From: Aurantibacillus circumpalustris
GTDB taxonomy: Bacteria > Bacteroidota > Bacteroidia > B-17B0 > Aurantibacillaceae
Length of the DNA stretch: 64,000 nt
NCBI RefSeq assembly: GCF_029625215.1
Contig: NZ_CP121197.1
Location: 3,472,001-3,536,000, forward strand
Direction of reading: 5' to 3'
Below are positions 14,824 to 19,314 of this stretch, in pieces (the first letter of the stretch is position 1; each line of letters opens with the position of its first letter). Both the position numbers and the translations under genes were made by a program. The notes under the pieces were generated by a model. That model did not search any database. It was not told the DNA's origin and saw nothing but the letters and a program-made list of their open reading frames with translations.

Positions 14824-15096
14824 AAGCAGTAAAGATATAACTTTTAAAAGAGCATAGTGCAATTACAAAAAAGCATATAAAACCAGTAAAAAGACATAGG
14901 TCAGAAATAACTGCGCTTGTATACTATCAAAGTAATCTAATTTTTTAACGGGTTTTTAAGACCACAACATTTATTCAAACGGTATAACACATCAATGTGT
15001 TACAATCTTCCTTTCATGAGATTTAAAATTAAAAATTAAAACGGTTTTAATACCTTCGTGTACTTGGTAGCAAAAAAACTCAATTTATTTTTTAGT

Positions 15097-16350
15097 ATGC
15101 AAAAACTTCTTTTAAAAAATATAAAAAATCTGGTAAGTGTTTACGAAAAAGCCCCAATAACATTAAAGGGGAAAGAGATGGGCAAATTACCTTGTATCGA
15201 AAATGCCTGGTTAGCTTGCGACAGCGGCTTAATCGCTGATTACGGATCAATGGATGATTTTCCGGGCATTACAAACTGGAAAGATTTGGAAGTTATTGAC
15301 TGTAGTGGAAAACTTGTTCTTCCTTGTTTTGCAGATAGCCACACACACATTGTTTATGCAGGAAACCGTGAACAAGAATTTGTTGACCGCATAAATGGTT
15401 TAAGTTATGAAGAAGTCGCAAAACGCGGTGGTGGCATTTTAAACTCAGCAAAAAACCTACGTCAAACATCTGAAGATGATCTTTTTGAGCAATCGAAACA
15501 ACGCCTCATAGAAATTATAAAACAAGGAACTGGCTCAGTAGAAATTAAAAGTGGTTATGGTTTAGATCTTGAAAGCGAATTAAATATGTTGCGGGTGATT
15601 AAACGTTTAAAGGCCTTGAACTGGATTCCAGTAAAAGCAACCTTTTTAGGTGCACACGCTTTACCGCAAGAATTTAAAACCAATAAACAAGGCTACATTG
15701 ATTTAATCATAAACGAAATGTTACCTGCAATTGAAAAAGAAAAATTGGCCGATTTTATTGATGTGTTTTGTGAGAAAGACTATTTTACAGCCGAAGAAAC
15801 AAAACAAATTTTAATGGCAGGAAAAAAACACGGACTAATTGGTAAAGTACATGCAGAACAATTAAGTCATACCAATGGAATTAAAACAGCCATTGAATGT
15901 GACGCAATTAGCGCTGATCATTTAGAGTTTTGTAACGATGCGGACATTGCGTTATTTACCAAAAGCAAAACCATGCCAACCATTTTACCAGGTGCGGCTT
16001 TCTTTTTAAATCTACCATTACCACCTGCGAGAAAAATGATCGACTCAGGTTTAGCAATTGCCTTTGCAAGTGATTACAACCCTGGCAGTAGTCCGAGTGG
16101 CAACATGAAACTCATGATGAGTTTGGCGTGCATCCAATATAAACTAACACCCGAAGAAGCATTTAATGCTGTTACAATTAACAGTGCTTATGCTATGCAG
16201 TTAGAAAAAGAAGTGGGATGTATTAGCAATGGTAAACTAGCAAATTTAATCATCACCAAAGAAATAAGCAGTTATGGTTATTTACCTTACGCTTTTGGGA
16301 GCGAGTTGTTTGATAAAATAATCATTAATGGTGAAATATGGAGGCTGTAA
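15097..16350 (+). CDS. hutI: Imidazolonepropionase
   Basis: Hydrolyses 4-imidazolone-5-propanoate to N-formimino-L-glutamate, the third step of histidine degradation. It is an amidohydrolase-superfamily enzyme: metal ligands HTH at H82 and H84 within FADSHTHIVYAG, the later KVHAEQLSH histidine, and the FASDYNPGSSPS aspartate loop are all present. Length is 417 residues, normal for HutI. I use the ATG at 15097; the frame is open to a GTG at 15058, but the extra residues are not family-like. No hutH, hutU or hutG is in the window, so the pathway genes are dispersed or elsewhere. A TACCTTCG box lies at about 15049-15056. Confidence 0.95.
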   Translation: MQKLLLKNIKNLVSVYEKAPITLKGKEMGKLPCIENAWLACDSGLIADYGSMDDFPGITNWKDLEVIDCSGKLVLPCFADSHTHIVYAGNREQEFVDRINGLSYEEVAKRGGGILNSAKNLRQTSEDDLFEQSKQRLIEIIKQGTGSVEIKSGYGLDLESELNMLRVIKRLKALNWIPVKATFLGAHALPQEFKTNKQGYIDLIINEMLPAIEKEKLADFIDVFCEKDYFTAEETKQILMAGKKHGLIGKVHAEQLSHTNGIKTAIECDAISADHLEFCNDADIALFTKSKTMPTILPGAAFFLNLPLPPARKMIDSGLAIAFASDYNPGSSPSGNMKLMMSLACIQYKLTPEEAFNAVTINSAYAMQLEKEVGCISNGKLANLIITKEISSYGYLPYAFGSELFDKIIINGEIWRL

Positions 16351-16368
16351 TTGATACATATAAAAATG

Positions 16369-16403
16369 AAAAAGCGCCAAAAGACAACTAGGGCGCTTTT
16401 TTT
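16369..16403. terminator. Bidirectional terminator between hutI and a lipoprotein gene
   Basis: AAAGCGCC (16371-16378) pairs with GGGCGCTTT (16391-16399) and is followed by a T-run on the plus strand; the minus strand also ends in a T-run. It lies between two convergent genes. Confidence 0.85.
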
Positions 16404-16418
16404 ATAATTTGTGCTTAA

Positions 16419-16649
16419 CTATTTTAGCGAACATTCGGTTTTATTAATGTAATTACCATCAGTATAGTTATACTCACTTGTTTTACAAAATGACTCTGCT
16501 GTAGATTTCCTTCCACGTATAGTTGTTGTTGTTGAACTCGAACTGGTTGAACCAATTTCGCCAGATTCGCTAACACACTCACATTTATAATTTTTTACAC
16601 ATGAAGTCATGCTTAAACAGGTTACTGTGGCAAATAATAATTTTTTCAT
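16419..16649 (-). CDS. Small Cys-rich lipoprotein, paralogue 1
   Basis: A 76-residue predicted lipoprotein: Lys-rich leader, hydrophobic core, lipobox-like TSC at about 16-17, then KNYKCECVSESGEIGSTSSS, a Thr-rich stretch, a basic patch, KSTAESFCKTSEYNY and C-terminal TECSLK. Four cysteines remain after the lipid-bearing one (Cys-Glu-Cys, Cys, Cys). It shares this pattern with the two genes at 17,051 and 17,427 but is the most diverged of the three. I do not know a named family. It probably sits in the inner or outer membrane facing the periplasm. The cysteines suggest two disulfides or a metal site. Confidence 0.75.
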   Translation of the reverse strand: MKKLLFATVTCLSMTSCVKNYKCECVSESGEIGSTSSSSTTTTIRGRKSTAESFCKTSEYNYTDGNYINKTECSLK

Positions 16650-17000
16650 CTTTTTAGGGTTTTAGGTTTATCTCGTAAAAATAAGATTTAGTAAATAATT
16701 GCCGAAATTTTATCCAAAAACATTTACAAGTATTGAAGGGCCCTGTTTTAAACTTCAAAAGCTAATTTGAAAGCTGTTTCTAGCAAATAAAAAAGCAACA
16801 AGCAAAGCAACTTTACATAATTTAGAAAATTTGAAGGAGGGGCATCGAAAAGCTCCAATACCACTTAAGCTTTAAGAAATTGAAAACGTGTATAAAAAAC
16901 AGGTAGTTACTTTTGTTTATGGCAAAACGTAAACTATGAATTATTTGATAGGTAATGATTAACAGAATAGTGTAGTACACCAAAAAGGTAATAGGTGACA

Positions 17001-17035
17001 AAAAAAACGCCCAACGATTACGCGGGCGTTTTTTC
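17001..17035 (-). terminator. Terminator of lipoprotein paralogue 2
   Basis: AAAAAACGCCC pairs with GGGCGTTTTTT over an 11-nt loop (ACGATTACGC-like). It lies 16 nt past the stop codon of the gene at 17051 and nearly matches the terminator at 17375. Confidence 0.88.
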
Positions 17036-17050
17036 AGAGTTTGGTGTAAA

Positions 17051-17284
17051 TTATTTAATTGAACACTCAGATTTGTCAATCTCAGTACCAAAGTTGAAAT
17101 TATAATCACCCGCATTGCAAATAATTTCAGCATCTGCCTTTTTAGCATTGATAACAGAAGTTGTAGTAGTTTTAACAGTAGAGCCCGACTCTCCTTCTTC
17201 AGTAATACATTCGCAAGTGTAATCTTTTTTGCAAGAAACCATTGTCATACTTGCAACAGCTGCAATTAATAGAATTTTTTTCAT
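17051..17284 (-). CDS. Small Cys-rich lipoprotein, paralogue 2
   Basis: A 77-residue lipoprotein whose first 24 residues (MKKILLIAAVA..., lipobox MVSC, KKDYTCEC) are almost those of paralogue 3. The middle is Thr-rich (VKTTTTSVINAKKADAE) and the end is DKSECSIK. Conserved positions across the three copies are CEC, GSTxxTTTT or GATTKTTTT, KxxAExxC, Y and ECSxK. It has its own terminator, so the three genes are separate transcription units rather than one operon. Function unknown. Confidence 0.8.
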   Translation of the reverse strand: MKKILLIAAVASMTMVSCKKDYTCECITEEGESGSTVKTTTTSVINAKKADAEIICNAGDYNFNFGTEIDKSECSIK

Positions 17285-17374
17285 AGTTGTTTGATTTTTT
17301 AAATACCAGAATTGGCTTTAATGTTAAATTTGATAGTGTGATTAGAATTTAAATTATTAAAAACTAGTTTTAAG

Positions 17375-17410
17375 TAAAAAACGCCCAACGATCACGAGGG
17401 CGCTTTTTTT
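17375..17410 (-). terminator. Terminator of lipoprotein paralogue 3
   Basis: AAAAAACGCCC (about 17376-17386) pairs with GGGCGCTTTTTTT with a loop AACGATCACGA. Its sequence is nearly the same as the terminator at 17001, so gene and terminator were duplicated together. Confidence 0.88.
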
Positions 17411-17426
17411 AATAATTAAATATTAA

Positions 17427-17660
17427 TTATTTAATTGAACACTCAGTTTTAGAAACTGTATTTCCAATTGTTAAATCGTAATCACCTGCATTACAAGCAG
17501 TCTCAGCGTCAGCTTTTTTAGCATTGATAACAGATGTAGTAGTAGTTTTTGTAGTGGCGCCTGATTGCCCATACTCATAAACACACTCACAAGTGTAATC
17601 TTTTTTGCAAGAAACCATTGTCATACATGCAACAGCTGCAACTAATAAAATTTTTTTCAT
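17427..17660 (-). CDS. Small Cys-rich lipoprotein, paralogue 3
   Basis: A 77-residue lipoprotein with lipobox MVSC, then KKDYTCECVYEYGQSGATTK, TTTTSVINAKKADAETAC, a short Gly/Asp segment and SKTECSIK. Its DNA and protein are close to those of paralogue 2, pointing to recent tandem duplication, with paralogue 1 an older copy. The cysteine spacing is the same in all three. The start is a strong ATG after an AAAATTTTTTTCAT-type AT-rich leader. Function unknown. Confidence 0.8.
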   Translation of the reverse strand: MKKILLVAAVACMTMVSCKKDYTCECVYEYGQSGATTKTTTTSVINAKKADAETACNAGDYDLTIGNTVSKTECSIK

Positions 17661-17806
17661 TTTTTATAGGTTTTTAAAGTTTATAGCGCCAAAAATAATG
17701 ATTAGCTCTATTAAACGCAAAAAAATTTACAGTAATCTTAGTTTAAATTTGTAAATCACTTATCTGAATTAATAAAATGCCTTTTTAACTTTGTAGGCGG
17801 TTAGTT

Positions 17807-17882: not shown

Positions 17883-18743
17883 TTAATCGATTACAATCAC
17901 AAGGTATTTTGATGCGTCCCAAAATTCTTTTGCATTTAATATATCAATTCTTTCAATTGGTTTTTCTCCAACAAGTTTATAAGAGTTTTTTGGATGATTA
18001 GACAAAAGTTTTACCTTTTTTGCACCAATATTTATACTTGTTGTCTGTTCGATATTAATTTTAGTAAAATATTCTTTATTAAAATCGTCTGTTACTTTAG
18101 TTGATTTTCCTAGTCCTATAAAACCACCTTCCTTCGAAATTACTTTTTTCGCCTCCAGTTCCTTTTTTGTTCCAATAGTATAATAGGCGGTATTTAACAT
18201 TTCTGTTTTTAAAGAGCTTTCTCCTTCCACTACTTTATAATTGGTATTTAAATTAGCCAGTTCAATATTTAAACTTTCCATTCTGGTTTTTAACTCTTCT
18301 ATTTCCTCATCTTTGAGTGTGATGGTGTTTTGAAGATTCTCTATCATCTTCTCCATCCCCTCTAGTTTTAAATTGCTTTGCTTCAGTTTCGCACTTAAGG
18401 AGCTAATACGGTTTTTGTTTTTGGCCATTAAATCATATATCGCCTGAATATCTTCCTTAATTTGATTGCTTTTATTTTTCACATCACCCTTGCTGCTTGC
18501 ATTACCAATAATTTTTTCCTTATCCTTAATGGCATTTAAATTTTCTTGTATTTCGTTAAACGACTCAATAAACTCTTGCAAAGCAGCCGATTTTTCATTT
18601 AACTGTCCAGATAACTCACCATTGGCATTTTTTAAACTATCGGCAAGTGGATTAACCTTGTCTCCAGTATCTTTGCAATTAGTAAATGTTAAACTTGTTA
18701 ATGCTAGTAATAAACACGCTACAATGATTTTTATACTTTTCAT
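17883..18743 (-). CDS. Coiled-coil lipoprotein
   Basis: A 286-residue protein with an SPII leader (hydrophobic core LLLALTSLTF, lipobox TNC at about 21-23). Residues from about 35 to 175 have heptad patterning and charged repeats, forming long coiled coils with a break around 80-95. The last 110 residues are a globular domain beginning near YYTIGTKKELEAKKVISKEG and ending in a hydrophobic strand YLVIVID. Similar lipoproteins are common in Bacteroidota, but I know of no tested role. It probably spans part of the periplasm as a rod with a C-terminal head. It has its own terminator. Confidence 0.75.
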   Translation of the reverse strand: MKSIKIIVACLLLALTSLTFTNCKDTGDKVNPLADSLKNANGELSGQLNEKSAALQEFIESFNEIQENLNAIKDKEKIIGNASSKGDVKNKSNQIKEDIQAIYDLMAKNKNRISSLSAKLKQSNLKLEGMEKMIENLQNTITLKDEEIEELKTRMESLNIELANLNTNYKVVEGESSLKTEMLNTAYYTIGTKKELEAKKVISKEGGFIGLGKSTKVTDDFNKEYFTKINIEQTTSINIGAKKVKLLSNHPKNSYKLVGEKPIERIDILNAKEFWDASKYLVIVID

Positions 18744-18865: not shown

Positions 18866-19276
18866 TTAGCAAAATTCATCGTAAACAGCCTTTAAGTGCT
18901 CAGATATGGCGTTTGCGTTATGCCCTTCAATATTATGACGTTCAATAAAATGAACCAATTCTCCGTTTTTAAACAAAGCAATGGCCGGACTGCTTGGTGG
19001 ATAAGGTGCGAAGTGTTTTCTTGCCTGATTAACTGCATCTACATCAAATCCTGCAAAAACTGTAGTAAGTTTAGAAGGTTTTTTAGTATTCTCAAGACTT
19101 TTTTTAACACCTGGGCGACACGCACCAGCAGCACAACCGCATACAGAATTCACCACCATTAGAACAGTGCCTTCCTCGTTCACGGCTTTATCAACATCTT
19201 CAGGATTTATTAATTCTAAAAAGCCCGCAGTAGTTAATTCGGCTTTCATTGGAGTTACAATAGCTTCAGGATACAT
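18866..19276 (-). CDS. BrxA/BrxB-family bacilliredoxin
   Basis: A 136-residue thioredoxin-fold protein of the YphP/YqiW (BrxA/BrxB) family, which reduces mixed disulfides between proteins and bacillithiol. The active site is the CGC of VVNSVCGCAAGACRPG (about residues 46-48), following MYPEAIVTPMKAELTTAGF, the usual N-terminus. I start at this MYPE methionine; the frame is open 11 codons further, to a TTG, but those residues are not conserved. A TACTTTTG promoter box lies on the minus strand at 19307-19314. Whether this organism makes bacillithiol cannot be seen from the window. Confidence 0.92.
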   Translation of the reverse strand: MYPEAIVTPMKAELTTAGFLELINPEDVDKAVNEEGTVLMVVNSVCGCAAGACRPGVKKSLENTKKPSKLTTVFAGFDVDAVNQARKHFAPYPPSSPAIALFKNGELVHFIERHNIEGHNANAISEHLKAVYDEFC

Positions 19277-19306
19277 GTAATTAGTGTTTTGTGTTTTGTT
19301 ATTCCA

Positions 19307-19314
19307 CAAAAGTA
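19307..19314 (-). promoter_or_regulatory. Bacteroidota -7 box (TACTTTTG)
   Basis: It matches TAnnTTTG on the minus strand, 30 nt upstream of the bacilliredoxin ATG. No convincing -33 TTG was assigned. Confidence 0.5.

Follow-up and report, generated by a model that had tools for sequence, protein, structure and literature searches.

Very small four-cysteine lipoproteins of Bacteroidota and the membrane thioredoxin fusion that recurs beside them

The window, the whole stretch of DNA analysed here, comprises 64,000 nucleotides of Aurantibacillus circumpalustris (assembly GCF_029625215.1, contig NZ_CP121197.1, positions 3,472,001 to 3,536,000), and positions in it are counted from its first letter. 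Three tandem genes in the window code for Cys-rich lipoproteins of 76 or 77 residues (Table 1), in agreement with an earlier sequence-only reading of the same DNA. All three products have a short signal peptide, a lipobox cysteine, a CEC motif that starts six residues later, a strip of threonine and serine residues, a KxxAExxC motif and a C-terminal ECS(L/I)K; the lipobox and the four motifs after it had been listed in that reading and are kept in every copy. Copies 2 and 3 are 75% identical, and copies 1 and 3 are 49% identical. The dN/dS ratio between copies 2 and 3 is 0.24 (0.21 for the mature part), based on about 50 and about 38 synonymous sites, respectively, and therefore purifying selection seems to act on the copies, which do not resemble chance open reading frames (ORFs).

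Each unit carries a terminator of its own within a 36-nt repeat, and all three hairpins are more stable than nearly all shuffled sequences. A pattern built on the copy 2 and copy 3 terminators matches the window twice, at those two sites with at most three mismatches, whereas zero matches are expected. A general terminator scan missed all three because their loops are longer than the limit of the scan. The copy 1 terminator sits between copy 1 and a convergent gene, which going by its sequence we take to be hutI, and therefore may serve both genes. Copies 2 and 3 are spanned by a 277-nt direct repeat (77%), and this repeat together with the shared terminator repeat fits the proposal that whole units were duplicated. 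In many relatives, unlike the copy-plus-terminator units of the window, lipoprotein copies are packed with short gaps. The promoter-like consensus matched upstream of copy 3 occurs at 11 sites in the window against 7.6 expected, a number reached by 15 of 100 shuffles, and a sigma-70 promoter scan of the window found no excess (8 sites versus 7.4 in shuffles). Directly upstream of the array, a gene at 17883-18743 codes for a coiled-coil lipoprotein whose score for the Cbp1 collagen-binding family is 195.8 bits, above the cut-off of 90. A bacilliredoxin gene of the BrxA/BrxB family is located at 18866-19309, some 1.2 kb away from the array; its product is probably cytoplasmic, and its presence there is probably due to chance.

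Table 1 Features of the lipoprotein array and of related loci (positions in the window unless another locus is named)
Feature	Position	Strand	Remarks
hutI-like gene (imidazolonepropionase), convergent neighbour	15058..16350	+	name presumed from the sequence
Copy 1 terminator, possibly shared with convergent hutI	16369..16404	-	36-nt repeat; hairpin -13.5 kcal/mol, z -3.83
Lipoprotein copy 1	16419..16649	-	76 aa; mature part from Cys17
Copy 2 terminator	17002..17037	-	36-nt repeat; hairpin -18.9 kcal/mol, z -4.80
Lipoprotein copy 2	17051..17284	-	77 aa; lipid Cys18, then Cys24, Cys26, Cys56, Cys74
Copy 3 terminator, near-identical to that of copy 2	17376..17411	-	36-nt repeat; hairpin -15.9 kcal/mol, z -4.54
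Lipoprotein copy 3	17427..17660	-	77 aa; Cys positions as in copy 2; AlphaFold2 model bb-a-bb, mean pLDDT 85.1
Bacteroidota-type promoter-like site TTTG-N20-TATTTTTG, upstream of copy 3	17690..17721	-	consensus match
Fusion gene of the source genome	G000:C1:2251797-2252759		not next to a lipoprotein
Second-kind lipoprotein, L249	1712-1921		
Second-kind lipoprotein, L254	1580-2251		
Second-kind lipoprotein, L282	1674-1865		
Second-kind lipoprotein, L284	2063-2239		
Second-kind lipoprotein, L287	1198-1663		
Second-kind lipoprotein, L299	651-1192		

The lipoproteins belong to a larger family. A search of the source genome (one contig, 4.6 Mb) with copy 3 returned 12 places at E<=10, including three tandem pairs away from the array; the members read at these places range from 70 to 133 residues and share the five cysteines of the mature part. 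When the source genome and 59 relatives were searched at E<=0.01, copy 3 matched 40 of the 60 genomes, namely the source genome, 36 of 36 other members of the genus and three of 23 further members of the class. A full-length profile (A1) matched 24 of 296 genomes over the phylum, many of them by the signal peptide alone, and the profile was therefore rebuilt on the mature part (A2); two ORFs (L106 and L156) had been left out as chance ones before profile building. The mature-part profile finds nine members at E<=0.001 in the source genome, whose family count is thus at least nine, 1 to 11 members each in 38 of 40 genomes of the source genus, and matches in 70 of 295 genomes of the class. The family is common in the source genus and patchy outside it. 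The source genome and ten further members of its genus have arrays adjacent to hutI; these consist of one to six copies, the six being in L078, at loci that are the best copy 3 matches or pattern hits rather than a random sample. Copy number varies at this orthologous site. One contig titled Candidatus Saccharibacteria (L140) has three lipoprotein copies of the Bacteroidota type, possibly through a binning error. Copy 3 has no match in 50,697 phage and 72,556 plasmid records, and a mobile origin of the lipoproteins was rejected on these grounds.

The cysteines are strongly conserved in the family. Five cysteines are invariant in alignments of 59 and 115 members, whose rows were picked with a CxC filter, and selection by the CKKDxTCxC motif only is therefore a fairer test of cysteine conservation. 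A scan for TGYAARAARGAYNNNACNTGYNNNTGY in one genome from each of 84,980 species gave at least 119 stretches, and 74 of 80 titles among the matches listed name Bacteroidota groups. Eight of these stretches yielded no ORF with the motif; the matches listed contain 125 distinct ORFs with CKKDxTCxC, 122 of which have a lipobox at the motif. Among these 122, exactly two further cysteines follow in 119 and four in the other three, one of which (L156) resembles a chance ORF. The last cysteine is 2-5 residues from the C-terminus in 121 of the 122, and the number of non-lipid cysteines is even in all of them. His and Met make up 0.6% and 0.7% of their mature residues. In the 59-member alignment, M1 and C18 are invariant and S17 is kept in at least 90% of rows; going by pattern, the proteins thus have the signal peptide and lipobox cysteine of bacterial lipoproteins. 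Asp at +4 also reaches at least 90%, in rows mostly chosen for Asp there. No side chain other than Cys that typically binds metal is invariant among the aligned members. The sequence-only reading hinged on these cysteines being kept in homologues, and they do persist.

Exceptions to the regular pattern bear on cysteine pairing. Twenty-four ORFs fall outside it, mostly because of start-codon choice, a cysteine in the signal peptide or a contig edge, and three variants (L139, L120 and L088) were taken as real. L139 keeps C1 and C3 and is missing C2 and C4, and L120 has one extra cysteine in the region of strand 1 and one in that of strand 4. Other lipoproteins beside oxidoreductases are without C2 and C3 and have two new cysteines. 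These variants give mixed hints: L139 and L120 would suit C1-C3/C2-C4 pairing, and the lipoproteins without C2 and C3 would suit C1-C4/C2-C3 pairing. A second kind of small Cys lipoprotein, with CKKC..C, ECC or NCC near its start, a cysteine before the helix, none in the helix and a late one, adjoins the same oxidoreductases or regular members of the family (Table 1).

Scans of the lipoproteins against Pfam, NCBIfam and PHROGs gave weak matches, none above a curated cut-off, in keeping with the earlier statement that the family is unrecognised. For the PG1828 family lipoprotein (NF050142, cut-off 50 bits, whole protein), the three window copies score 7.7, 18.2 and 11.7 bits over residues 1-42 at most. 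Thirty-eight of 59 members match this model at E<=0.1 (best 1.1e-6), and among ten members scanned singly the best score is 25.7 bits and the matches lie within residues 1-51. The Cor superinfection exclusion protein (PHROG 1119) is matched by 14 of 59 members at E<=0.1; in the two of the ten scanned members whose match extent was seen, it covers residues 1-51 rather than the full length. The recurrent PG1828 and Cor matches thus fall in the signal peptide and first strand. Single weak matches to DUF3836 (residues 1-67, E 0.039), phrog_902 (residues 1-74, E 0.0085) and StkA (residues 13-72, E 0.0019), and a few to unrelated toxin subunits, were treated as noise, like the recurrent ones. A literature search found no paper on the family or on its pairing with an oxidoreductase, which is weak evidence of absence as some queries were very strict. 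Judged by these scans, the four-cysteine proteins appear to form a family of very small Bacteroidota lipoproteins that is so far undescribed.

AlphaFold2 with the 59-row alignment predicts a confident bb-a-bb module for copy 3, with block means of pLDDT from 91 to 96 over residues 21-77. The predicted strands span residues 20-32, 35-47, 61-65 and 68-76 and the helix residues 49-57, placing the CxC in strand 1, the third cysteine in the helix and the fourth in strand 4. Foldseek found no PDB entry at E<=0.001 for this model (best E 0.49), and the best VIA match is 1vq3 (Z 5.1, rmsd 3.9, 59 aligned). Several small phage proteins in BFVD, about 60-70 residues long and without a known function, are predicted to resemble it in shape (TM about 0.6) at non-significant E values; they were not used as signs of kinship (probability up to 1.00, E 0.02-0.2).

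In Capnocytophaga, the surface export signal is K-(D/E)2 or Q-A-(D/E)2 after the lipid cysteine, as given in the part of PMC5080379 that describes it. The former occurs in one and the latter in none of 179 mature N-termini, and none of these is net negative at +2 to +6; most of the 179 were chosen by CKKD, so that mainly position +5 was free for this comparison. Surface exposure was rejected because this signal is absent, and periplasmic exposure is therefore the default guess, although signals of other genera differ and the absence is no proof. O-glycosylation was also rejected. The motif for this modification, D(S/T)(A/I/L/V/M/T), is depleted in the lipoproteins (19 seen versus about 60 in shuffles).

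Clustering by similarity of the genes around the at least 119 lipoprotein stretches revealed two recurrent neighbours among the matches listed. The first is a membrane protein, mostly of 300-340 residues, with 24 genes in 23 stretches, a CxxC motif in 23 of the 24 (the remaining one is truncated where its stretch ends) and an NCGCFG-like motif in 18. The second, represented by 12 genes, is a membrane-thioredoxin protein about 205 residues long. Genes of both types closely follow the lipoprotein gene on its own strand, with anything from an overlap of frames to a gap of about 180 nt, except in L165, where the gene is upstream. Among 101 array groups with at least 900 nt of downstream sequence, a CxxC protein is encoded on the same strand no more than 250 nt away in 36, three of which (L079, L145 and L168) look unrelated by eye. 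Two named isolates among the matches, Fluviicola chungangensis (L115) and Brumimicrobium glaciale (L139), have the lipoprotein, whose operon with the oxidoreductase is not seen in the stretches read from them.

The linkage also holds in the reverse direction. A gene was counted as a fusion of a MauE/DoxX-like part with a thioredoxin domain when its product matched the L134 protein at E<=1e-15, and 50 fusion genes were picked by the fusion alone in 48 genomes of the class outside the source genus, leaving out eight source-genus genomes and G392, whose gene is at a contig edge. A lipoprotein with four or six cysteines lies on the same strand at most 200 nt upstream of 37 of the 50, whereas among 55 other ORFs in these stretches, each at least 200 residues long, one has such a lipoprotein upstream. 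Fisher's test gives 2e-17 for the 47 fusion genes with room upstream, a value that overstates independence because the genomes are related. Three of the 13 fusion genes without an upstream lipoprotein sit at a contig edge, and the lipoprotein rule, a regular expression with a gap limit, misses some proteins (L251) and drops others (L266 and L269). In G378 and G480, which have no profile match, a divergent upstream lipoprotein has four and six further cysteines, respectively.

Co-occurrence points the same way. Among 295 genomes of the class, 53 have both proteins, four the fusion only, 17 the lipoprotein only and 221 neither; the lipoprotein is thus present in 53 of 57 genomes with the fusion versus 17 of 238 others (27 of 30 versus 13 of 125 when counted by genus). 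Six genomes (G052, G516, G520, G534, G541 and G562) are outside the fusion set, their match having stopped at the MauE part; the four that were read (L276-L279) have a CxxC further on, and counting all six gives 54 of 63. Five of the 17 lipoprotein-only genomes have the smaller transmembrane-thioredoxin protein, whose gene, by the coordinates listed, is directly downstream in G445, G520 and G513; it is convergent to the lipoprotein gene in G362 and lies apart from it in G472; in G449, which has no fusion match, a CxxC ORF is downstream of the lipoprotein. Six more genomes have the smaller protein and no profile match (G055, G381, G515, G541, G558 and G562). A divergent four-cysteine lipoprotein lies directly upstream of it in G381 and G515, and none was seen upstream in G541, G558, which ends at a contig edge, and G562.

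In an alignment of 57 fusion sequences, picked by length and for diversity, C218, C221 and P282 are kept in all 57, and the two cysteines of the membrane CxC in 50 and 53. The CxPC active site is typical of TlpA/ResA-type proteins. It occurs in none of the 57 fusions, 46 of which have CxHC (CPHC in 29, other CxHC in 17). The predicted structure (mean pLDDT 92.7) has long helices that extend to residue 175, followed after residue 208 by a thioredoxin-like fold, and the best Foldseek matches of this domain are thiol-disulfide oxidoreductases (E 5.6e-5), including the reductases ResA, TlpA and CcmG. The fusion partner thus has the CxxC, the later conserved Pro and, in its model, the fold of a thioredoxin-fold oxidoreductase. 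Pfam MauE (PF07291, cut-off 27 bits) matches the proteins of L134, L185, L126 and L165 at 76-88 bits and does not match those of L111, L103 and L091 from the same cluster or those of L082, L109 and L132 of the smaller type; apart from a weak Redoxin match in one, these non-matching proteins of both types have no clear Pfam match. Four matching partner proteins reach 55-79 bits for the BT_3928 family (NF045576, cut-off 250), in the N-terminal half only. DsbB (PF02600, 22.1 bits) matches none of the 40 source-genus genomes and six of 14 controls; VKOR (PF07884, 27.5 bits) matches one of the 40, not the source genome, and three of the 14 controls. With the source genus lacking DsbB and nearly lacking VKOR, the fusion is a natural candidate for a disulfide oxidase there.

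Taken together, linkage, co-occurrence, the even cysteine numbers and an active site that is mostly CxHC suggest that the fusion oxidises the lipoproteins. The four-cysteine lipoproteins may accordingly be periplasmic clients in which the MauE-thioredoxin fusion installs two disulfides, with oxidation as the presumed direction; we give this explanation an even chance. The lipoprotein would be exported by Sec and lipidated at its conserved cysteine, as the lipobox suggests, and would then be transported to the outer membrane to face the periplasm, in line with the absent Capnocytophaga export signal. There its four other cysteines would form two disulfides holding a module of about 55 residues in the predicted bb-a-bb fold. 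The thioredoxin domain of the linked fusion would oxidise these cysteines, and its CxxC would in turn be re-oxidised via the CxC of the membrane domain. In the source genus, where 38 of 40 genomes have one fusion match each, mostly unlinked to lipoproteins, a single fusion gene may serve many dispersed or duplicated lipoprotein genes. Once folded, these modules probably serve as compact units for binding or structure at the periplasmic face of the outer membrane.

Several observations count against this client explanation. The window array has no oxidoreductase gene beside it, and none of 30 fusion loci in the source genus has a family member directly upstream; a divergent fusion in G024 does have one, next to a short frame, and that in G004 has none. 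In the other 11 of the 17 lipoprotein-only genomes, no partner is evident in the stretches read. The source genome also codes for a second MauE-like protein (L192, 1282-2628; a 449-residue frame with an HCGCFG motif). The family is patchy, occurring in 70 of the 295 class genomes and in 3 of 23 relatives outside the genus.

Alternatively, the CxC may be a reactive disulfide, and the lipoprotein may carry oxidising equivalents from the fusion to targets in the outer membrane or periplasm in the manner of DsbA. The partner is a membrane oxidoreductase, as such a relay would need, and reactive periplasmic CxC motifs are known in SprF and PorG of Bacteroidota, in which, as the authors of PMC12635249 think, an internal disulfide forms and is attacked by GldK; this exchange chemistry keeps the relay alive. 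However, the CxC seems dispensable, since L139 is without C2 and other lipoproteins adjoining oxidoreductases are without C2 and C3, and C3 and the C-terminal cysteine are as constant as the CxC. Up to 11 diverged copies per genome would also be odd for a single carrier. We consider such a relay unlikely. Its wider form, in which the fusion is the main disulfide-forming enzyme and the lipoproteins are DsbA-like carriers that pass disulfides to envelope machines including SprF, is less likely still.

It is slightly less probable again that the thioredoxin protein works in the opposite direction, keeping the lipoprotein cysteines reduced or reshuffling them, with the lipoprotein as a redox sensor or buffer. 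Foldseek does place domains of ResA, DsbE/DsbF, TlpA and CcmG near the top of its matches, but the active sites, without a single CxPC and mostly CxHC, speak against it; CPHC is a DsbA-like motif according to the title of structure 3c71. Likewise, the membrane CxC domain would resemble an electron sink rather than a supply of the DsbD type when the layouts are compared.

Phage T5 Llp and Cor are exclusion lipoproteins that block outer-membrane receptors. The copies could by analogy be diversified exclusion or immunity lipoproteins, each binding and blocking a different outer-membrane receptor or toxin, and the one to six tandem copies at a syntenic site, the divergent loops on a fixed cysteine scaffold and the weak Cor match would fit. 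However, that match is confined to the N-terminal part where its extent was seen, copy 3 is unmatched in the phage and plasmid records, and copies 2 and 3 are under purifying selection relative to each other, which makes this explanation improbable. Finally, a metal site formed by the four cysteines, which the sequence-only reading had offered beside disulfides, would suit four invariant cysteines in a small periplasmic protein but is very improbable: disulfides are favoured because non-lipid cysteine counts are even, His and Met are scarce with no other typical metal-binding side chain invariant, and a thioredoxin-fold oxidoreductase is a frequent neighbour.

The client explanation has parallels in known systems. 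MauD and MauE are needed for the maturation of methylamine dehydrogenase, the small subunit of which has six disulfides. The present pairing would likewise join a membrane protein of the MauE type and a thioredoxin-like part with one exported Cys-rich client, and four of seven scanned partners of the larger type match Pfam MauE; in contrast, a single chain here contains both MauE and thioredoxin, and the protein linked to it is a tiny lipoprotein. In VKOR-thioredoxin fusions and in DsbB/DsbA, a membrane cysteine pair is next to a periplasmic thioredoxin-fold CxxC. The fusion has the same two elements, but its membrane domain is MauE/DoxX-like, and the VKOR and DsbB profiles match nothing in the source genome. 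DsbL/DsbI is an oxidoreductase system with a dedicated client, ASST. Here, too, a dedicated oxidoreductase would adjoin its client gene, although the proteins are different and the client family is multiplied and dispersed. The fusion of the source genome shares its MauE-like N-terminal half (residues 16-173) with the BT_3928 family but scores 58.6 bits against the cut-off of 250, and four longer MauE-CxxC proteins assumed to be of the BT_3928 type have no four-cysteine lipoprotein upstream (0 of 4). The twin-cysteine tails of SprF and PorG, as described in the relevant part of PMC12635249, are alike in having a periplasmic CxC with disulfide chemistry in Bacteroidota, but they belong to gliding and type IX secretion (T9SS) components rather than to small lipoproteins.

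The sections of PMC12635249 concerned report that the gliding and secretion machines of Bacteroidota are disulfide-dependent, and the words "Dsb", "oxidase" and "thioredoxin" are all absent from its main text. A literature search found no paper naming the disulfide-making enzyme of Bacteroidota without DsbB or VKOR. The gene pairing points to an undescribed disulfide pathway and its favoured clients. Paired in a recurrent operon, the membrane thioredoxin fusion and the four-cysteine lipoprotein offer one enzyme and one small client that can be tested together, and the pairing would place in a pathway a so far undescribed lipoprotein family that reaches 11 members per genome in the source genus. 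The partner enzyme would thus make an orphan lipoprotein one half of a testable pathway, and the wider interest of the family lies there.
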